Shown here: piece after piece, positions 17,721 to 24,886 of the stretch | How the letters are laid out: each line of letters opens with the position of its first letter | Numbering within the stretch: the first letter of the stretch is position 1 | Source: Henriciella sp. | Lineage (GTDB): Bacteria; Pseudomonadota; Alphaproteobacteria; Caulobacterales; Hyphomonadaceae | Length of the DNA: 64,000 bases | Reading direction: 5' to 3' | NCBI GenBank assembly: GCA_021776655.1 | Contig: JAJFFK010000043.1 | Coordinates: forward strand, 1 to 64,000 | Made by a program: the position numbers and the translations under genes | Notes under the pieces: generated by a model | Database searches by the model: none | What the model saw: the letters and a program-made list of their open reading frames with translations, nothing else | What the model was told of the DNA's origin: nothing

Positions 17721-17735
17721 TTAACGAGACGTTAA
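17721..17735 (+). promoter_or_regulatory. CtrA-type binding site
   Basis: TTAA (17721-17724), seven bases, TTAA (17732-17735), an exact match to the CtrA spacing rule. It lies 46 bases before the first DUF11-type gene, a normal place for an activator site. A further TTAA at 17709 is spaced eight bases from this one. Confidence 0.5.
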
Positions 17736-17781
17736 TCGAACCGAGTGAAATTTACGGTCAAATCACTTCGGAGATGACACG

Positions 17782-18261
17782 ATGTTTCGACCCCGCCTTG
17801 CCGCCCTCGCCGCGTTCGCCCTGATGACCGTTCCTGCTTATGGTCAGAGCCTGACAGCCAGTCAGAGTGTGGAAGTTGCCATCATAACGGTCGATGAAAC
17901 CGGCGCCGAGGCCGTGACCTATCAAACTGCTGACGAGATCGCCCCAGGCAACGAACTTCGCTACGTTCTCAATTTCGAGAATGCCAGCGAAGAGGCTGCC
18001 AGCAATGTCCGTCTGGACATGCCAATACCAGCGGAGATCAATTTGATCGAAGGATCAATTGAGAGTGCTGGAGCTGTGATAACCTATTCCGCCGATCGCG
18101 GCGAAACCTTTGCCTCGCGCGCGAACCTCAGCGTATCTGCAAGTGATGGGCTCACCCGAACAGCCACGATAGAAGATATCACACATGTGCGCTGGACCTT
18201 CACCGAGGCAATTGCCCCGGGACAAACCGGCAGCGTTAGCTATCGCGGAATATTGCAGTAA
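17782..18261 (+). CDS. Small exported DUF11-type protein
   Basis: 159 residues with a signal peptide (MFRPRLAALAAFALMTVPAY, cut near AYG). The rest is one immunoglobulin-like DUF11 module: TADEIAPGNELRYVLNFENA, NVRLDMPIPAEINLIEG, ITYSADRGETF, VRWTFTEAIAPGQTGSVSYR. Such modules are stalk or scaffold units in surface proteins. Probably periplasmic or surface-bound. First of three consecutive genes with related domains; a CtrA-type box lies just upstream. Confidence 0.75.
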   Translation: MFRPRLAALAAFALMTVPAYGQSLTASQSVEVAIITVDETGAEAVTYQTADEIAPGNELRYVLNFENASEEAASNVRLDMPIPAEINLIEGSIESAGAVITYSADRGETFASRANLSVSASDGLTRTATIEDITHVRWTFTEAIAPGQTGSVSYRGILQ

Positions 18262-18344
18262 GCGCTTCAAAAACCCCAAATTTTTGGTCTGCTGTTAACC
18301 TTCATATGCCTAAATGCCTGAAAAACCAGAGCATGGAGCGGGCT

Positions 18345-19583
18345 ATGAGACATGGAAATACGCAGACGGCGCTAGCGCGCTTGCTACTGGCAAGCGTGGT
18401 ATCCACCGTATTGGCAGGTGCCGCGTATGCGGGCAACTCGCTAACCGAAGCGGGTACGTCTGTCAGCAATACGTTTACCCTCGATTATGACGTCGGGGCG
18501 ATTAACCAGCCAACAATCACCAACGACAATGTCAGTCCGCCACCCGGCGCGACCGTGCAGGGCACACCTACCCTGTTCACCGTTGACCGTAAGGTCGATC
18601 ATGTGATCACGGCCACTAACAGCACGCTAAACAGTCCTCCGGGAACCAATGCAACGCTGACTTATGAATTGCTCAACGAGGGCAATGACACGCAGGCCTA
18701 TTCATTCTCGCTGGCCGATCTCGACAATGGCGCAGGCAGTTTCGATGCAACCGCACTGGCCATCGTCTATTTTGTCGACACCAATGATAACGGCCTGTTT
18801 ACTGACGAAACCGGCGTCGCCATTGCCCAAACCGCGATTAGTACAGCCGCGGGCGGAGCGTTCGTAACCCCTGATGTTCCAAAGGGTGTCAGGGTTTTGC
18901 TTGAAATCACAGGCGCTATTCCATCCGGTTCAGCCGATGCTGATACCGATGATATTACACTGGTTGCCGAAACCCGCGATCCAACTGCGTTCCTGAATGA
19001 AGCCTCAGCCACTCCGGCTGCGGTGACATTGGGCACATCGGGCAGTGCAAATACAATCACCGGCGCGGCTCAGAATGTTCTCGCCGATGGCACCGGTGTG
19101 GCCGCAGCCGAAACATCTGGTGACAGTGACGGAATATTCGCTGTGACAGGGATTATCCAGGTTCAATCGCCGGATCTGAGCGCAACCAAGACTGTTACGG
19201 CGATCAGCGAACCAGGCGTTACGCTTCCGTCTGTCACAGACTGTGCATCGGCAACCGCTTTTGCCAATGCCAAAGCCGTCCCTGGGGCCTGTATCGAATA
19301 TTTGATCGAGGTTGAAAACACCGGCGCGACAGCCTCGGCGACCAATCTCAGCATCAATGATATTCTACCCGCTGAAGTGACGTTCGTTAGCGCGACTTTG
19401 GACACGCCGACAACCGGGTTTATTGATGATCCCGCTGTTGCTGGAGTTGGCCCGACGCTAACGGCTCCGGCCGCCAACACCAATTGTGATGGCACCGCTG
19501 GCACCTGTGATATCACGCTGGATGACGCCATTCTGGCCGCCGGGAATATCGGCCAGATCCGGATTAGGGCATTGGTCGACTAA
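18345..19583 (+). CDS. Exported repeat-domain surface protein with DUF11 module
   Basis: 412 residues from the ATG at 18345, which follows GGAG; earlier in-frame codons (18333, 18306) are less well placed. Signal peptide ends near AAYA (28). The chain is low in Lys and Arg and rich in Thr, Ala, Asp, Asn and Gly. It holds at least two beta-sandwich units, the last being a clear DUF11 module (CIEYLIEVENTGATASATNL, INDILPAEVTFVSATLDTP), plus a calcium-loop-like FVDTNDNGLFTDETG. A strong terminator follows. Presumably a surface or periplasmic structural protein; no enzyme motif. Confidence 0.72.
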   Translation: MRHGNTQTALARLLLASVVSTVLAGAAYAGNSLTEAGTSVSNTFTLDYDVGAINQPTITNDNVSPPPGATVQGTPTLFTVDRKVDHVITATNSTLNSPPGTNATLTYELLNEGNDTQAYSFSLADLDNGAGSFDATALAIVYFVDTNDNGLFTDETGVAIAQTAISTAAGGAFVTPDVPKGVRVLLEITGAIPSGSADADTDDITLVAETRDPTAFLNEASATPAAVTLGTSGSANTITGAAQNVLADGTGVAAAETSGDSDGIFAVTGIIQVQSPDLSATKTVTAISEPGVTLPSVTDCASATAFANAKAVPGACIEYLIEVENTGATASATNLSINDILPAEVTFVSATLDTPTTGFIDDPAVAGVGPTLTAPAANTNCDGTAGTCDITLDDAILAAGNIGQIRIRALVD

Positions 19584-19608
19584 ACCACCCAAGTTCCCAA
19601 CACAATCC

Positions 19609-19650
19609 AAAGACCTCCGGTCATATGACCGGGGGTCTTTTGCATTTTTC
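19609..19650 (+). terminator. Intrinsic terminator after the second DUF11-type gene
   Basis: AAAGACCTCCGGTCA pairs with TGACCGGGGGTCTTT (19609-19640, one G-U pair), followed by TTTGCATTTTT. The stem is flanked by A and T runs and could stop transcription from either side. Confidence 0.85.
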
Positions 19651-19822
19651 CAAGCAATTACCTGTGCTTGGGATCGAGATAGATCAAATTTCACTTATTT
19701 CCCAAGGCTGATCCTAACCATAACTCAGTAAGCCTCTCAACCTGAGGGCGGCATCCGATCGCCCCAATGAGCTTGTGTGGATGAACCCAAAGAGGTCACC
19801 GCACTTTGGTGGAGAGTGGGCG

Positions 19823-22800
19823 ATGACTTCCTTCTGGAAGCACATCTATAAAGGTATTGCGACGTTTGCACTTGCAAGCGGCCTCGCGAGTATGAGCGCC
19901 CCAAGCGCACATGCGGCGCTCGGCGATGATGTCAGCAATATTGCCACGATTTCGCAGGATACGGCGAGCGGCCAGCTGGTTCTCAATACCAATTCCGCTG
20001 TATTCACGATTGAAGCGCGCCAAACCCCGTCGCGCGTTGATTTCTTCCGAATTGCTCCAGCAGCGCCAGATGCGCAAATCATTAGCCTGAATGGAACCGA
20101 TTTCAGCCCGTCTGGTGATCTGGTCGGACCTTTCTTGCCAATTGGGGCTGTCACCGGCTTTGGCAAAACGGCACCGGTCGCCGTCGGTCCAACGGCGCTG
20201 GTCCCGGCGGAAACATACATTTCCGGCGAAGTTATGGTCGTCAGGGTCATAGATGCGGGTCAGAATGGTGACCCAAGCGTTATCGAAACGGTGAATTTGC
20301 GTATTTCGACGGATAATGGCGATGAAATCGTACTGCGCCTGTATGAAAGCAGCGCTGATAGCGGTGAGTTCTTTGCATTTTTTGCCAGCTCAGCTGATCC
20401 AAGCGCTCAAAATGACACGATCATCACTGCGCCGCAGGATACTGTCCTGACCGCCACCTATATTGATGTCTTTGACTCGTCTGAAGTGTCAGTCGATACC
20501 GCCTTGATTGATCCATATGGGCGAGTTTTTGACAGCTTCTCAGGACAGCTTCTTGACGGTGTATCTGTAACTGTCATCGATGATTCGACAGGATTACCTG
20601 CAGCCGTGACGGGCATCGATGGTAGCGCAGTTTACCCGTCGACCGTGCGCACTGGCGAAGCGGTCACGGACTCGAATGGCACGACTTATCCAGCCCAGCC
20701 AGGTATCTTCTTCTATCCTATCTTGCCGCCAGGAGCGTATCGCCTCGACGTACAGGCACCAGAAGGATATTTATACCCGTCTGAGCGCCAGGAAAGCGAT
20801 TTTCTCGGTCTGCCTAATGCACCATTCGCGATTGATCTTTCTGGATCATATGGTCAGACGATCACGCTTTCGACGACGGGCCCGATAAATCTCGACGTCC
20901 CACTTGATCCAAATGGTGACCTGATCGCCCGTAAGGAAGCTTCTGAATCAACCGCCTCAGTTGGCGATTTCATCAGTTACACCGTCGAGCTTGAAAATGC
21001 CGGCCTCGTTTCAACTCCGTTCACGCTGCAGGACACACTGCCACTTGGATTGCGTTATATTAGCGGCTCAGCCCGCCTCGACGGCGTGCAAATCGGTGAT
21101 CCGAAAATCTCAGGCGATGGGCGGACACTCACCTTCCCTGAAAGCGGCGTCCTCGCGGGTGAAACCGTACAGATCCGCTATGTCGTATCCGTCGGTCCGG
21201 GTGCCTCGGAAGGCCAGATTGTAAACACGGCCCTGGCCCTCAACCGAAGCGGTGCAGCCCTGTCCAATATCGCTGAAGCTGCAATCATCATTGAGGAAGA
21301 TCTGTTGAAATCACGCCTGACAATTATTGGTCGGGTGGCTGAATCGGCCTGCCAGCCAGATCAGGAATGGGCGCGATCTCTGGCCGATGGCAAAGGCGTC
21401 TCAGGGGTGCGTTTATATATGGAAACCGGACGCTACGTGGTGACCGATGCGGACGGCTTGTTTCATTTCGAGGGCGTGCGTCCCGGAACACATGTCGTTC
21501 AAGTCGACAAAGCCACCTTACCGGCAGGTTATGACCCGGTCGTTTGCGAAGAAAACACGCGTTACGCTGGCAGCGCTCTGTCAAAATTCGTTGATGCGCG
21601 CGGCGGCACGGTTTGGCGAGCAAATTTCTACCTGAAGCGCAACGGATCTGCCCTGGACGCACAGGACGAACCCAATTTACCGGATGAAAGTGATCAGGTA
21701 TTTGATCATAACTGGCTGAATAATCAACAAGATACGGAGCCACACTGGGCCTACCCGCTAATCGGGAGTACGCCCGCGGGCCGTTCGGTTAATCTTGGTT
21801 TTGTACATGGCGCAGACCAGAATATCAGGCTGACTCTGAACGATCATCCGGTGTCTGGCGTGAACTATGCGGGTACAGAGTTCTCCGACAATCGCAATAC
21901 TGCCCTGTCACGCTGGACCGGCGTCGATATTCAGCGCGGCAAGAATACTTTTATTGCCGATGTCAGGGACCGATCTGGCAACTTGCTGACAAAGGTTGAG
22001 AAAACTGTCTGGTTTGTTGACGAAGTTCATCGCGCACGTCTGGTCGCTGACCGCTCGATCCTGGTTGCAGATGGGCGAACCCGGCCGGTTCTGGCCTTGC
22101 GCCTGGAAGACGGTGCCGCGCATCCGATCCATCAGGGCCGCCTGGTAGAGATCAATGTCGCCGACCCTTACCGGTTGGCGCAAGCCGCTGAGCTTGAGTT
22201 CGAAAACCCGGCGGCGACCGCCTTCAGCAATGTTATTGGTACGCGGGTGAGCGCCGAGGGCATCGCCTATGTCGAGCTCGAGCCGACCTTGCAGTCAGGC
22301 CGGGTGCGACTGAGCGTCAAACTGCACGATGGGCGCATCGAAGACGTAGATGTTTGGCTTCAACCCGAGAAACGGGAATGGGTCCTGGTTGGCCTGGCCG
22401 AGGCAGAAGGCCTCCTCTCACATGTGGAAGGCAATAATAGCCGCGACCTGGACGAGGTCATGGGCGATGGACGCCTCGCCTTCTTCGCCAAAGGTGTCAT
22501 TCGCGGCGATTGGTTGCTGACAATTGCCGTCGATACCGCCAAGCGTCGCGGCAATGCAGATGGCGAGCTGTTCGATGAGATTGATCCGAACGCCTATTAC
22601 ACATTGTACGGTGACCGGACGTGGCAGAATAATGACGCTGAAAGCCGCTACCCGGTCTATATCAAGCTCGAAAGGGATACGTTCCAGGCCCTGTTCGGCG
22701 ACTTTGAGACCGACCTCACTGATACCGAGCTTGGGCGCTATTCACGCCGCCTGTCAGGCCTGAAAGTCGACTATGAGAGCGAGATCCTGTCAGTGACAGC

Positions 22801-24886
22801 CTTCGCCTCGGAAACCAATCAGAGCTTCGCCAAGGATGAGATCGCGTCGGATGGCACATCCGGGCCTTACGCCCTGCGCCAGGCACCGTTGATCCGGTCG
22901 TCTGAAGTGATCACGATCGAAACGCGCGATCGCTTCCGCCCGGATACACTGGTTGGGGTCCAAACTTTGACCCGCTATACCGACTACGAGATTGATTATG
23001 TCACCGGCGAACTGTTCTTCCGTCACCCAGTGGCGGCGGCAGATGCGCAATTCAATCCGAATGTAATTGTGGTTGACTATGAAACCGCGAGCGCTGGCGA
23101 CCGCAGCATAACGGCCGGTGGCCGCGCGGCAGTGCGCATGGCTGACGGCGCAGTTGAAACCGGGATCACTGCGATCCGCGAAGATGGCCGCTCTGGCGCA
23201 CAAGGCGCGTCAACGCTGATCGCCAGCGATATTACCATCCGTCTCGGCGAGCAGACAGAAATACGTGCCGAAGCCGCGGCCAGTAGCGCCAAGACCGATC
23301 TCGGCAAACAAAGCGGCAATGCCTGGCTGGTAGAAGCCACACGCCGTAGCGAGAATCTCAGCCTGACCGGCTATTATCGCGAGGAAACCGAGGGCTATGG
23401 TCTCGGCCAACAATCTTCGGCAAGCTCTGCGATCCGCCGCGTTGGTGCGCAATTGAGCGCCGAGCTTGGAGCGACAGATGTCGCGGGCGGCAATGACCGC
23501 TCCGTGCGCCGCATTGAAGCGCAGACTTACCGTGAGGAGAACCTGAGCGTAGGCACCCGGCGCGACGTGGTTGATCTGGCCCTGCGCCAGGACTCTCAAA
23601 CCTTTGGGGCGAGCGTCGGATTACGCGCTGCGGCTGAGGATTTCAACACGCTGGCCGCACCGCGCCAGTCAGTGTTGCTGACCGCCAGCCTCCGCAAGAC
23701 CTTCCTTGATCAAGGCCTGACCATCAGCGCAGCACACGAAGAACCGATCTATTCGGGCGGCGCAAACGACGACGATGTGACGCTGTTTCCGGGCCGAACG
23801 GTGCTTGGTGTCGACAAGACGCTAGGTCGGCGCGCAACCCTGAGCCTGCGCCACGAAGTAACCAATGGCGGCGATGCTTCGGGTGACAATACGGTGGCCG
23901 GCATCACCTGGACCCCGCGCAGCGGCACGGATGTTCGCGTATCAGCCGATATGATTACCCGCGACGATGCGCGCCGGATTGGGGCAACCGTTGGGGTCGA
24001 CCAGACTTGGCAGATCGACGATCGCTGGAGCGTCGGTGTTGGGCTCGCCCGCCGCGCAAATGTCGACGGATCCGATATACCGCTCGATGTCACACCGGAT
24101 GCCGCCATTGGACCACTCGAAGATGGCCTGCGCAGCCCACTGGTCGGTGATGAAGACTATACGTCTGGCTATTTCGGCGCGGGTTATCGCGGCGAGCACA
24201 CTGCTGCCTCGGGCCGTATCGAAATCCGCGATAGCGCCAGCGGGAACCGGGTTGTCACCAGCCTCGGCGGGGCGCGTGAAATTAGCGAAAAACTGTCCTT
24301 CTCCGCAGCGCTACGCTATCAGGACGAACACAATGACCAGACAGCCGATCGCGAAACGCTCGACGTACGCATTGGGACCGCCTGGCGCCCACGCGGCGAA
24401 GGGATCGTCGTCTTCAACCGCTTTGACATCGGCCATGACAAGGTCGAAGGGCAATCGCAGCGAACCAAAGTCGTCAATAATCTCGTCCTCAACACGATGC
24501 TGACGGAACGCACACAAGTGTCCTTCTATCACGGTATCAAATATGTCGAAGCCGAGTTTGAGGGTTTCAAGACCAGCGGCTTCACCCATCTGGCCGGGAC
24601 CGAAATTCGCCATGATATCACGCCGAAATTCGATATCGGCCTGGCGGCGACATGGACATCGGGCGAAGCGACTCACACGTCAGAATGGGCGTTTGGGCCA
24701 AGCCTTGGCTTTACACCGAGGGACAATTTCTGGGTCAGTTTCGGCTGGAATGTCAGCGGTTTCGAAGATCGCGATTTCAAGGCGGCGGAATATACAAGGT
24801 CTGGCCCCTACATCAAATTGCGGGCGAAATTTGATCAAGACTCGATCAAGGGTCTGATCCACAGCCTCGGATTGGGCGGGCCTTAA
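19823..24886 (+). CDS. Giant outer-membrane protein: DUF11 and SdrD-B-like modules with C-terminal beta-barrel
   Basis: 1687 residues from the ATG at 19823 (GGAGAG upstream). Signal peptide ends near AHA (about 32). Approximate order: an N-terminal Ig-like region with an 'Asp-Ser-Gly-Glu-Phe' loop (about 130-200); SdrD-B-like modules (about 240-345); a DUF11 module (about 360-490); a Cna/carboxypeptidase-regulatory-like module with two Cys (about 500-605); an Ig-like stretch (about 735-850); then about 830 residues of alternating amphipathic strands rich in Arg, Asp and aromatic residues, read as an outer-membrane beta-barrel, with late strands such as DNFWVSFGWNVSGFEDRDF and GPYIKLRAKF. No TonB box is evident. 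It probably displays or anchors the DUF11 modules at the surface. Confidence 0.75.
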   Translation: MTSFWKHIYKGIATFALASGLASMSAPSAHAALGDDVSNIATISQDTASGQLVLNTNSAVFTIEARQTPSRVDFFRIAPAAPDAQIISLNGTDFSPSGDLVGPFLPIGAVTGFGKTAPVAVGPTALVPAETYISGEVMVVRVIDAGQNGDPSVIETVNLRISTDNGDEIVLRLYESSADSGEFFAFFASSADPSAQNDTIITAPQDTVLTATYIDVFDSSEVSVDTALIDPYGRVFDSFSGQLLDGVSVTVIDDSTGLPAAVTGIDGSAVYPSTVRTGEAVTDSNGTTYPAQPGIFFYPILPPGAYRLDVQAPEGYLYPSERQESDFLGLPNAPFAIDLSGSYGQTITLSTTGPINLDVPLDPNGDLIARKEASESTASVGDFISYTVELENAGLVSTPFTLQDTLPLGLRYISGSARLDGVQIGDPKISGDGRTLTFPESGVLAGETVQIRYVVSVGPGASEGQIVNTALALNRSGAALSNIAEAAIIIEEDLLKSRLTIIGRVAESACQPDQEWARSLADGKGVSGVRLYMETGRYVVTDADGLFHFEGVRPGTHVVQVDKATLPAGYDPVVCEENTRYAGSALSKFVDARGGTVWRANFYLKRNGSALDAQDEPNLPDESDQVFDHNWLNNQQDTEPHWAYPLIGSTPAGRSVNLGFVHGADQNIRLTLNDHPVSGVNYAGTEFSDNRNTALSRWTGVDIQRGKNTFIADVRDRSGNLLTKVEKTVWFVDEVHRARLVADRSILVADGRTRPVLALRLEDGAAHPIHQGRLVEINVADPYRLAQAAELEFENPAATAFSNVIGTRVSAEGIAYVELEPTLQSGRVRLSVKLHDGRIEDVDVWLQPEKREWVLVGLAEAEGLLSHVEGNNSRDLDEVMGDGRLAFFAKGVIRGDWLLTIAVDTAKRRGNADGELFDEIDPNAYYTLYGDRTWQNNDAESRYPVYIKLERDTFQALFGDFETDLTDTELGRYSRRLSGLKVDYESEILSVTAFASETNQSFAKDEIASDGTSGPYALRQAPLIRSSEVITIETRDRFRPDTLVGVQTLTRYTDYEIDYVTGELFFRHPVAAADAQFNPNVIVVDYETASAGDRSITAGGRAAVRMADGAVETGITAIREDGRSGAQGASTLIASDITIRLGEQTEIRAEAAASSAKTDLGKQSGNAWLVEATRRSENLSLTGYYREETEGYGLGQQSSASSAIRRVGAQLSAELGATDVAGGNDRSVRRIEAQTYREENLSVGTRRDVVDLALRQDSQTFGASVGLRAAAEDFNTLAAPRQSVLLTASLRKTFLDQGLTISAAHEEPIYSGGANDDDVTLFPGRTVLGVDKTLGRRATLSLRHEVTNGGDASGDNTVAGITWTPRSGTDVRVSADMITRDDARRIGATVGVDQTWQIDDRWSVGVGLARRANVDGSDIPLDVTPDAAIGPLEDGLRSPLVGDEDYTSGYFGAGYRGEHTAASGRIEIRDSASGNRVVTSLGGAREISEKLSFSAALRYQDEHNDQTADRETLDVRIGTAWRPRGEGIVVFNRFDIGHDKVEGQSQRTKVVNNLVLNTMLTERTQVSFYHGIKYVEAEFEGFKTSGFTHLAGTEIRHDITPKFDIGLAATWTSGEATHTSEWAFGPSLGFTPRDNFWVSFGWNVSGFEDRDFKAAEYTRSGPYIKLRAKFDQDSIKGLIHSLGLGGP

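Follow-up and report, generated by a model that had tools for sequence, protein, structure and literature searches.

Three consecutive genes encoding exported DUF11 proteins

The window analyzed here, that is the whole stretch of 64,000 nucleotides at positions 1 to 64,000 of contig JAJFFK010000043.1 from Henriciella sp. (GCA_021776655.1, a draft assembly of 2.97 Mb), carries three consecutive genes encoding a small, a medium and a giant protein, each with one DUF11 domain (PF01345) above the Pfam curated cut-off. All three genes, like every feature located below, lie on the + strand. The small gene (17782-18261) encodes a protein of 159 amino acids (aa) whose DUF11 occupies residues 50-133 according to Pfam and which is a possible chain cap. 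The medium gene (18345-19583) encodes 412 aa from the ATG at 18345, preceded by a stretch that by eye looks like a Shine-Dalgarno sequence, or 425 aa from the first ATG at 18306. The giant gene (19823-24886) encodes 1687 aa from the ATG at 19823, which is close to the start sites of several relatives, or 1703 aa from the GTG at 19775. Each protein begins with a hydrophobic stretch resembling, by eye, a signal peptide. At E 0.001, these three are the only DUF11 places in the genome. Open reading frames (ORFs) and Pfam matches therefore bear out the sequence-only reading of this DNA, which had described three adjacent exported DUF11 proteins of 159, 412 and 1687 aa. The same reading had called the second protein multi-module; Pfam does not bear this out, giving it a single DUF11, located in its C-terminal third. 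The giant also contains a carboxypeptidase-regulatory-like domain (21383-21511; PF13620, residues 537-579, E 5.3e-10). An IalB-family gene lies upstream of the trio and trpF, trpB-type and trpA genes lie downstream.

Conservation of the cluster

Relatives were sought by one contig scan with the conserved start of the giant's barrel, which found 175 of them, 80 being kept. They belong to Caulobacterales but also to Desulfosarcina, Geobacter, Desulfuromonas, gammaproteobacterial and Krumholzibacteriia records. Gene order was counted in those loci, 58 of the 80, whose sequence reaches further than 3.5 kb 5′ of the giant gene: a medium-type gene lies directly upstream of the giant in 55 and a small-type gene somewhere in the locus in 40. 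Where all are present, the usual order is small, medium(s), giant (24 loci listed), and this order recurs from Caulobacterales to Gammaproteobacteria and Desulfobacterota. The sequence-only reading would have been refuted by a lack of co-occurrence of the three genes in other genomes; they do co-occur, in a gene order conserved across phyla.

Two lists of matches in 299 genomes of the order, whose overlaps were tallied by hand, place the small gene in 53 genomes and the barrel in 42, with both in 38, the barrel alone in four and the small gene alone in 15. The four genomes with only the barrel have open frames of 790-2797 aa; in one of them (G137, locus L152), a DUF11 protein of 2862 aa is followed by a barrel protein of 1213 aa. 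In G228, one of the genomes with only the small gene, a contig end holds this gene together with a medium gene and the first part of a gene for an exported protein. Among the 25 genomes of the window's genus, 11 have all three genes, 13 have none and one (G023) has only a remnant of the giant; a DUF11 search in five of the 14 genomes lacking the full set, G023 included, found none. The remnant of G023 (L062:5987-6274) is a 3′ end of the giant gene at the syntenic place, the rest of the trio being missing.

A terminator-like hairpin of 14 pairs, eight of them G-C, followed by a T-rich tail, lies in the gap between the medium and giant genes (19609-19640), where the sequence-only reading had placed a terminator separating the second gene from the third. 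Similar hairpins occupy the same gap in six of the eight Henriciella-type loci (the window, L064-L066 and L069-L072) and in 14 of 63 loci overall, compared to 2.0 expected from shuffles. Such a hairpin is not special to this gap, since the gap between the small and medium genes also has one in 13 of 30 loci, the window not being among them.

Several other arrangements were observed in the course of this survey. In another genus of the family, the small gene stands beside trp genes, as in Henriciella, without medium and giant genes (loci L144, L145 and L146 of G041, G276 and G141). G039 has a second cluster (L061:3090-16994) that encodes a 1368-aa barrel protein, a 2075-aa DUF11-repeat protein and an apparent TonB-dependent receptor, and a similar pair of barrel and DUF11-repeat proteins is found in G137 (L152). 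By eye, some gammaproteobacterial copies (L131, L137, L138) have nearby, upstream of the cluster, genes reading like flagellin or flagellar cap, and several Hellea-type copies adjoin genes reading like tad/Cpa pilus genes.

DUF11 heads lacking the asparagine strand

A 2025 survey equates DUF11 with the CLIPPER domain and reports its structure as PDB 9IFR, in which one sheet has four strands and the other five, Lys715 is joined to Asn806 by an isopeptide bond and Asp748 is the likely catalyst; the Asn stands near the end of the domain and is followed by one final strand (PMC12617251). We call head the part of the domain that carries the Lys and the Asp, and tail the terminal hairpin that carries the Asn. 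The residue counts that follow exclude twelve loci that repeat other loci (four of them were retained for the small family). They cover closed medium ORFs of 280-520 aa, apart from three misread or adhesin ORFs, small ORFs longer than 140 aa, and giants whose barrel starts within residues 740-1000, a range outside which the long giants of Desulfobacterota and Gammaproteobacteria fall.

The internal DUF11 of the giant (20918-21301; Lys387, Asp420, Asn484) is complete. In this family, the Lys is kept in 56 of 60 giants, the Asp in 58, the Asn in 57 and all three in 55. The profile of these domains aligns with 9IFR (E 8.5e-10) in such a way that the Lys residues match each other, as do the Asn residues. 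In the 9IFR chain these are Lys-10 and Asn-101, which agree with Lys715 and Asn806; the aligned Asp is then one residue off the published 748. The set of residues expected for an intramolecular bond, Lys, Asp and Asn in one domain, is thus present in the sequence of the giant's internal DUF11; it is absent from the C-terminal heads of the medium and small proteins.

The DUF11 of the medium protein (19170-19580; Lys295, Asp352) terminates at its IRIRALVD strand, short of the Asn-bearing hairpin. Both Lys and Asp are retained in 71 of 72 medium heads, and an N-x-A/F motif is absent between 20 residues past the Asp and the end of the protein in 70 of 72. In an alignment of 37 of these heads, the only invariant columns are K7, Y44 and D64. 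The head of the small protein (17929-18258) also has no tail hairpin: its Pfam match stops at position 85 of the 114 of the profile, 26 residues before the C-terminus. The Lys position, on b1, is occupied by Lys or Arg in 39 of 48 small proteins (Val in the window copy), and the catalytic position is Asp in only three, including that of the window (Asp79), and T, V or A in 37.

The DUF11 of the small family also holds an inserted Asp-box-like S-x-D-x-G hairpin (44 rows), in which S103 and D105 are invariant and G107 is found in at least 90% of the rows. Weak sialidase matches of this family are due to this hairpin, which they mainly cover, and give no evidence of a sialidase.

N-termini resembling DUF11 tails

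After the signal peptide, the medium and giant proteins both display a G-x-x-[VI]-x-N-x-[AF]-like motif followed by a second strand, which we describe as orphan tails. That of the medium lies at 18435-18593 (Asn55 in the 425-aa numbering) and that of the giant at 19919-20023 (Asn55 in the 1703-aa numbering). The Asn is found in 68 of the 70 medium rows having letters there (72 rows in total) and in 56 of 60 giants, and Gly50 is also kept in 56 of 60 giants. According to hhalign, the medium N-terminus is homologous to that of the giant (probability 93%, P 3e-7), whereas no homology was detected between either of them and the N-terminus of the small protein.

Three comparisons point from the giant's N-terminus to DUF11 tails, the two made with HMMs being weaker and agreeing in direction only. 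When it was matched against 124 windows of the giant itself, the six best all included part of the protein's own DUF11 tail (P ~0.001). A hidden Markov model (HMM) of the tail scored above 3 bits on 25 of 71 giant N-termini, compared to 6 of 710 shuffles. Conversely, for 25 of 69 giants the best internal match of an HMM of the N-tail coincided with the DUF11 tail, for a chance level of about 5%.

The clearest comparison comes from a repeat protein outside the training set of the N-tail profile, which was trained solely on medium and giant N-termini. This protein, a 6220-aa stretch of a 7057-aa frame on contig 4 of G114 (L148, 160500-180000), has the same barrel type and 41 DUF11 repeat matches, mostly about 97-116 residues apart. 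The profile gave 30 matches on it, of which 12 scored at least 3 bits (the best having an i-E of 6e-8 for this single sequence). All 12 sit 69-76 residues past a repeat start, that is in one phase, and in 12 of 12 the Asn of the N-tail coincides with that of the T/S-N-T-A motif of the repeat. The N-terminus of the medium and giant proteins therefore resembles the closing segment of a CLIPPER domain, with its Asn. The first local alignments had put the giant's motif on the second strand of the tail, a register that the repeat protein corrected to the first strand. The 6220-aa protein may be a single-chain counterpart of the fibre proposed below. G097, G164, G255, G289 and G298 also have the same barrel type, in open frames of 5045-6851 aa.

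Adhesin-type proteins with DUF11 heads

Several relatives encode an additional large protein inside the cluster, such as one of 773 aa with GEVED and CshA_NR2 domains in G009, and the other distal proteins carry GEVED, CshA_NR2, DUF6923, DUF7933 or more DUF11-type domains. By eye, ten complete C-termini of such proteins end in a head with Lys and Asp (two more run off contigs). A profile built from seven of these heads and run on the 299 genomes of the order matched 37 of them: 33 of the 42 with the barrel and four of the 257 without (G032, G228, G237 and G251), an association with a Fisher p of 3e-31, not corrected for kinship. Counted by genus, the head occurs in 11 of 16 compared to 0 of 38. 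Many of these places are on a different contig from the barrel, and a single genome can have up to six matches.

The genome of the window has one adhesin-type protein, of 513 aa, on contig 4. It shows a sub-threshold Reelin-like match in its front part and was missed by the genome-wide DUF11 search because Pfam gives it no DUF11 call. We examined 42 adhesin-type ORFs from 40 regions, which represent part of the listed places (one of these ORFs is a medium and one protein was counted twice, in L186 and L222). Their heads have the Lys in 40 of 42 and the Asp in 41 of 42, the chain ends at most 3 residues from the profile match in 41 of 42, and the N-terminal tail motif was found in 0 of 42.

At E 0.001, neither usher (PF00577) nor PapD (PF00345) matches were found in the genome of the window, both being matched in an E. 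coli control. Therefore, the known chaperone-usher machinery is not available to this genome. In G009, genes for an usher and for a PapD-like chaperone, the latter a weak match, stand a few kb from the cluster (L048:1265-4485).

A rival account of the locus is that it encodes ordinary surface proteins, the giant being an outer-membrane protein with an extracellular N-terminal stalk, the other DUF11 proteins being separate exported proteins with a domain in common, and the supposed heads and tails being just where the proteins begin or stop. DUF11 is indeed a common stalk domain of fibrillar adhesins (PMC12617251, PMC9210967), and the similarity of the N-tails is weak sequence by sequence. However, this account would have to accommodate Lys and Asp residues that are almost invariant although their domain has no Asn to pair with, the conservation of orphan hairpins with an Asn, a single phase in all 12 matches on the repeat protein and adhesin heads nearly confined to genomes that bear a giant. 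We consider it distinctly improbable.

A predicted outer-membrane barrel in the giant

Residues 743-1703 of the giant (1703-aa numbering) were modeled with AlphaFold2 from a 65-sequence alignment (mean predicted local distance difference test score, pLDDT, 77.4; predicted TM-score, pTM, 0.71). Model residues 124-945 (22370-24835) are predicted to form a very large outer-membrane beta-barrel, with about 38-40 strands of at least 7 residues counted from the predicted secondary structure, a number that is approximate because model residues ~640-720 have low confidence. The structural matches listed are outer-membrane barrels (Deinococcus SlpA, TonB receptors, LptD, FimD, a type IX secretion system (T9SS) complex and porins), the sole non-barrel among them being ApoB100 at rank 45. 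Query-normalized TM-scores range from 0.10 to 0.22 in the best 50 rows; therefore, there is no close relative among the 50 best fold matches. The last strand of the giant reads GPYIKLRAKF, which we take to fit the usual outer-membrane beta-signal. The giant is thus predicted to be an outer-membrane beta-barrel protein, and the barrel that the sequence-only reading had proposed for the C-terminal region of the third protein is upheld by the model and its fold matches. The barrel of SprA has 36 strands and, by strand count, that of the giant exceeds any outer-membrane barrel that we know of. Nine giants from Hellea, Litorimonas, Algimonas and other Caulobacterales (L106, L112, L088, L114, L085, L091, L097, L111 and L084) have about 200 extra C-terminal residues that end in or near C-G-N-Y-[MF]-Y-x-C; the extra part of the one scanned, L106, has no Pfam match.

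A barrel of this kind could mainly serve secretion, as an usher- or SprA-like pore through which the DUF11 proteins are exported, their heads acting as export signals. Its very large size and the presence of FimD, LptD and a T9SS assembly among the matches listed are in keeping with such a role. T9SS cargo bears a C-terminal signal, which a common C-terminal module on all cargo would recall. However, Pfam found neither an usher (PF00577) nor an autotransporter barrel domain in the giant at E 0.1, hhalign of the barrel alignment against the usher of G009 found no relation (probability 0.3%), and a sequence comparison of the barrel with PDB chains gave no match to solved pores. The T9SS entry (8gl6_A) is at rank 24 of the fold list with a TM-score of ~0.2, and the FimD rows of the VIA-align list (Z 12.1-12.7) indicate only a barrel, since maltoporin scores higher (14.0). 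Membership of the usher or SprA families, searched by sequence and by fold, was not established. Moreover, a pure pore accounts neither for the N-tails nor for the Lys and Asp that the heads carry, and we regard it as an unlikely main function of the giant.

A proposed fibre of split domains

The split of the DUF11 domains is a feature of the sequences themselves. From it, we infer binding in trans, an isopeptide bond, a chain order and an adhesive-fibre role: we consider it reasonably probable that the cluster encodes the base and the shaft of a surface fibre whose parts join through split DUF11 (CLIPPER) domains. The C-terminal barrel would anchor the giant in the outer membrane, and the orphan tail at the giant's N-terminus would offer the reactive Asn. 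The orphan head of the medium, with its Lys and Asp, would take up this tail, and the second orphan tail, with which the medium begins, would be received in turn by the head of another medium, of an unlinked adhesin-type protein (that of 513 aa in this genome) or of the small protein. Each split domain would be closed between chains by an isopeptide bond from Lys to Asn, with the assistance of the Asp. The distal proteins, with a head but without a tail, would end the chain. The giant would only donate, the adhesin and small proteins only receive and the medium do both, which leads to the order barrel, medium (one or more), then an adhesin or the small protein as a cap. The genes follow one another as small-medium-giant, colinear with this chain.

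As the medium has both a tail and a head, its tail could instead fold onto its own head in cis, giving a circularly permuted and perhaps self-locked protein that requires no partner, while the tail of the giant would pair with an adhesin or small head or with nothing. Yet the giant has a tail although its own DUF11 is complete, and the adhesin heads have no tail, so that closure in trans would be needed anyway; closure of the medium in cis seems quite unlikely to us. Another possibility is a chain closed in trans by non-covalent, donor-strand-like contacts, with Lys, Asp and Asn kept for packing. Most small proteins, which lack the Lys-Asp pair, would have to work in this way, and DUF11 domains without the isopeptide bond also exist (PMC12617251). 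However, the near-invariance of Lys and Asp in medium and adhesin heads, together with the loss of the Asp in most small proteins, is the pattern expected for chemistry, and we find a wholly non-covalent chain doubtful. That Lys and Asp are conserved on heads and Asn on tails, on different proteins, argues for a bond between chains, and the joints of the proposed fibre are probably covalent. That several medium copies are present per fibre, or that the chain passes through the barrel, is speculative; the hairpin downstream of the medium gene would fit a larger amount of medium than of giant, hence several mediums per base, which is likewise speculation.

Several results weigh against a fibre of split domains. 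In hhalign comparisons of the medium N-terminus, the tail windows of the giant rank only 7th to 11th of 124. The tail HMM exceeds 3 bits in just 9 of 75 medium N-termini (17 of 750 shuffles), a similarity that is weak for single sequences, and the three internal matches of the N-tail HMM above 4 bits all fall outside the DUF11 tail. Both Lys and Asp are found in only two of 48 small proteins, so that most of them cannot form the bond by this chemistry, and the window copy has Asp79 but a Val in place of the Lys. A model of the small protein computed by AlphaFold2 without an alignment was poor (pLDDT 55.9) and was not used. Besides, of the 15 genomes with only the small gene, 12 fall into a single genus, g12, which is of the same family but is not that of the window. 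In the three g12 genomes examined, the small gene lies upstream of a trpF-like ORF (two genomes) or near trp genes (the third), and no DUF11 place was found at E 0.001; the small protein could be there a retained remnant or have a second role. Finally, a trpB tree, from which four outgroup rows without the anchor motif were dropped, explains the presence and absence of the trio in the window's genus by two changes, and a sign test cannot reach significance. The correlation at the genus level thus rests on few events, and the gene order shared across phyla is preferred as evidence for this reason.

Taken as a whole, the small protein is the loosest member of the proposed fibre and fits the scheme least well. 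The sequence-only reading had seen in the three proteins one surface apparatus with the barrel as its anchor. Gene order, co-occurrence and the predicted barrel speak for this; the loose place of the small protein and the involvement of an adhesin from outside the window depart from it. It had also supposed that the smaller proteins associate with the modules of the giant. Orphan heads and tails make contacts between split parts more likely than the binding of whole modules. A broader proposition is that the split self-ligating isopeptide domain acts as a universal coupling, by which adhesins would click onto mediums and mediums onto the Asn hairpin of the giant, giving covalent surface fibres without sortase, chaperone or usher and one base for many adhesins; we put it forward tentatively, its chances being a little short of even.

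Comparison with known systems

Among the titles and abstract openings listed by full-text literature searches, none describes such a set of genes or a CLIPPER domain in split form. If joining in trans is true, it would be a conserved assembly route of Gram-negative surface fibres, from Caulobacterales to Desulfobacterota, undescribed in the literature searched. Many "hypothetical DUF11" proteins would thereby receive a role, split isopeptide coupling would be shown to exist in nature and new orthogonal ligation pairs could be supplied to protein engineering. The barrel, larger by strand count than those we know of, would be worth solving.

In domain content, there is a likeness with CLIPPER fibrillar adhesins. 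B9T28_05395 of Acinetobacter silvestris (PDB 9IFR) shares the Lys, Asp and Asn set of DUF11, and the CshA_NR2 and GEVED adhesive parts of such adhesins are found in the distal proteins of some relatives. However, B9T28_05395 is a single long chain with adhesin, stalk and OmpA-like anchor, whereas these parts are here separate proteins, the junction domains appear to be shared out over two chains and a very large predicted barrel takes the place of the anchor.

In chaperone-usher pili, the distal adhesin has a C-terminal acceptor domain and no extension. The likeness of type 1 and P pili to the scheme proposed here lies in an incomplete Ig-like domain that is completed by the N-terminal extension of the next subunit (PMC9715654). 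In our case, the fold is that of DUF11, the donor would be a hairpin of two strands, and Lys and Asp are conserved. In addition, the genome of the window gave no usher or PapD match and the base would be a barrel protein of a family of its own.

SpyTag/SpyCatcher derives from a split CnaB domain. It resembles the proposed joints in being a split domain whose halves are rejoined by an isopeptide bond (PMC6539128). The Spy pair is engineered, whereas a CnaA-like domain here appears to be naturally split between co-conserved proteins.

The archaeal threads made of Saci_0406 combine a donor-strand chain with a proposed isopeptide bond between subunits and a possible cap protein without an acceptor site (PMC9715654). 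They differ in being archaeal, without an outer membrane, and in their proposed bond, which joins an Asn to the N-terminal amino group two subunits along. Overall, mechanistic precedents for the proposed fibre exist in donor-strand pili, archaeal threads and engineered Spy pairs.

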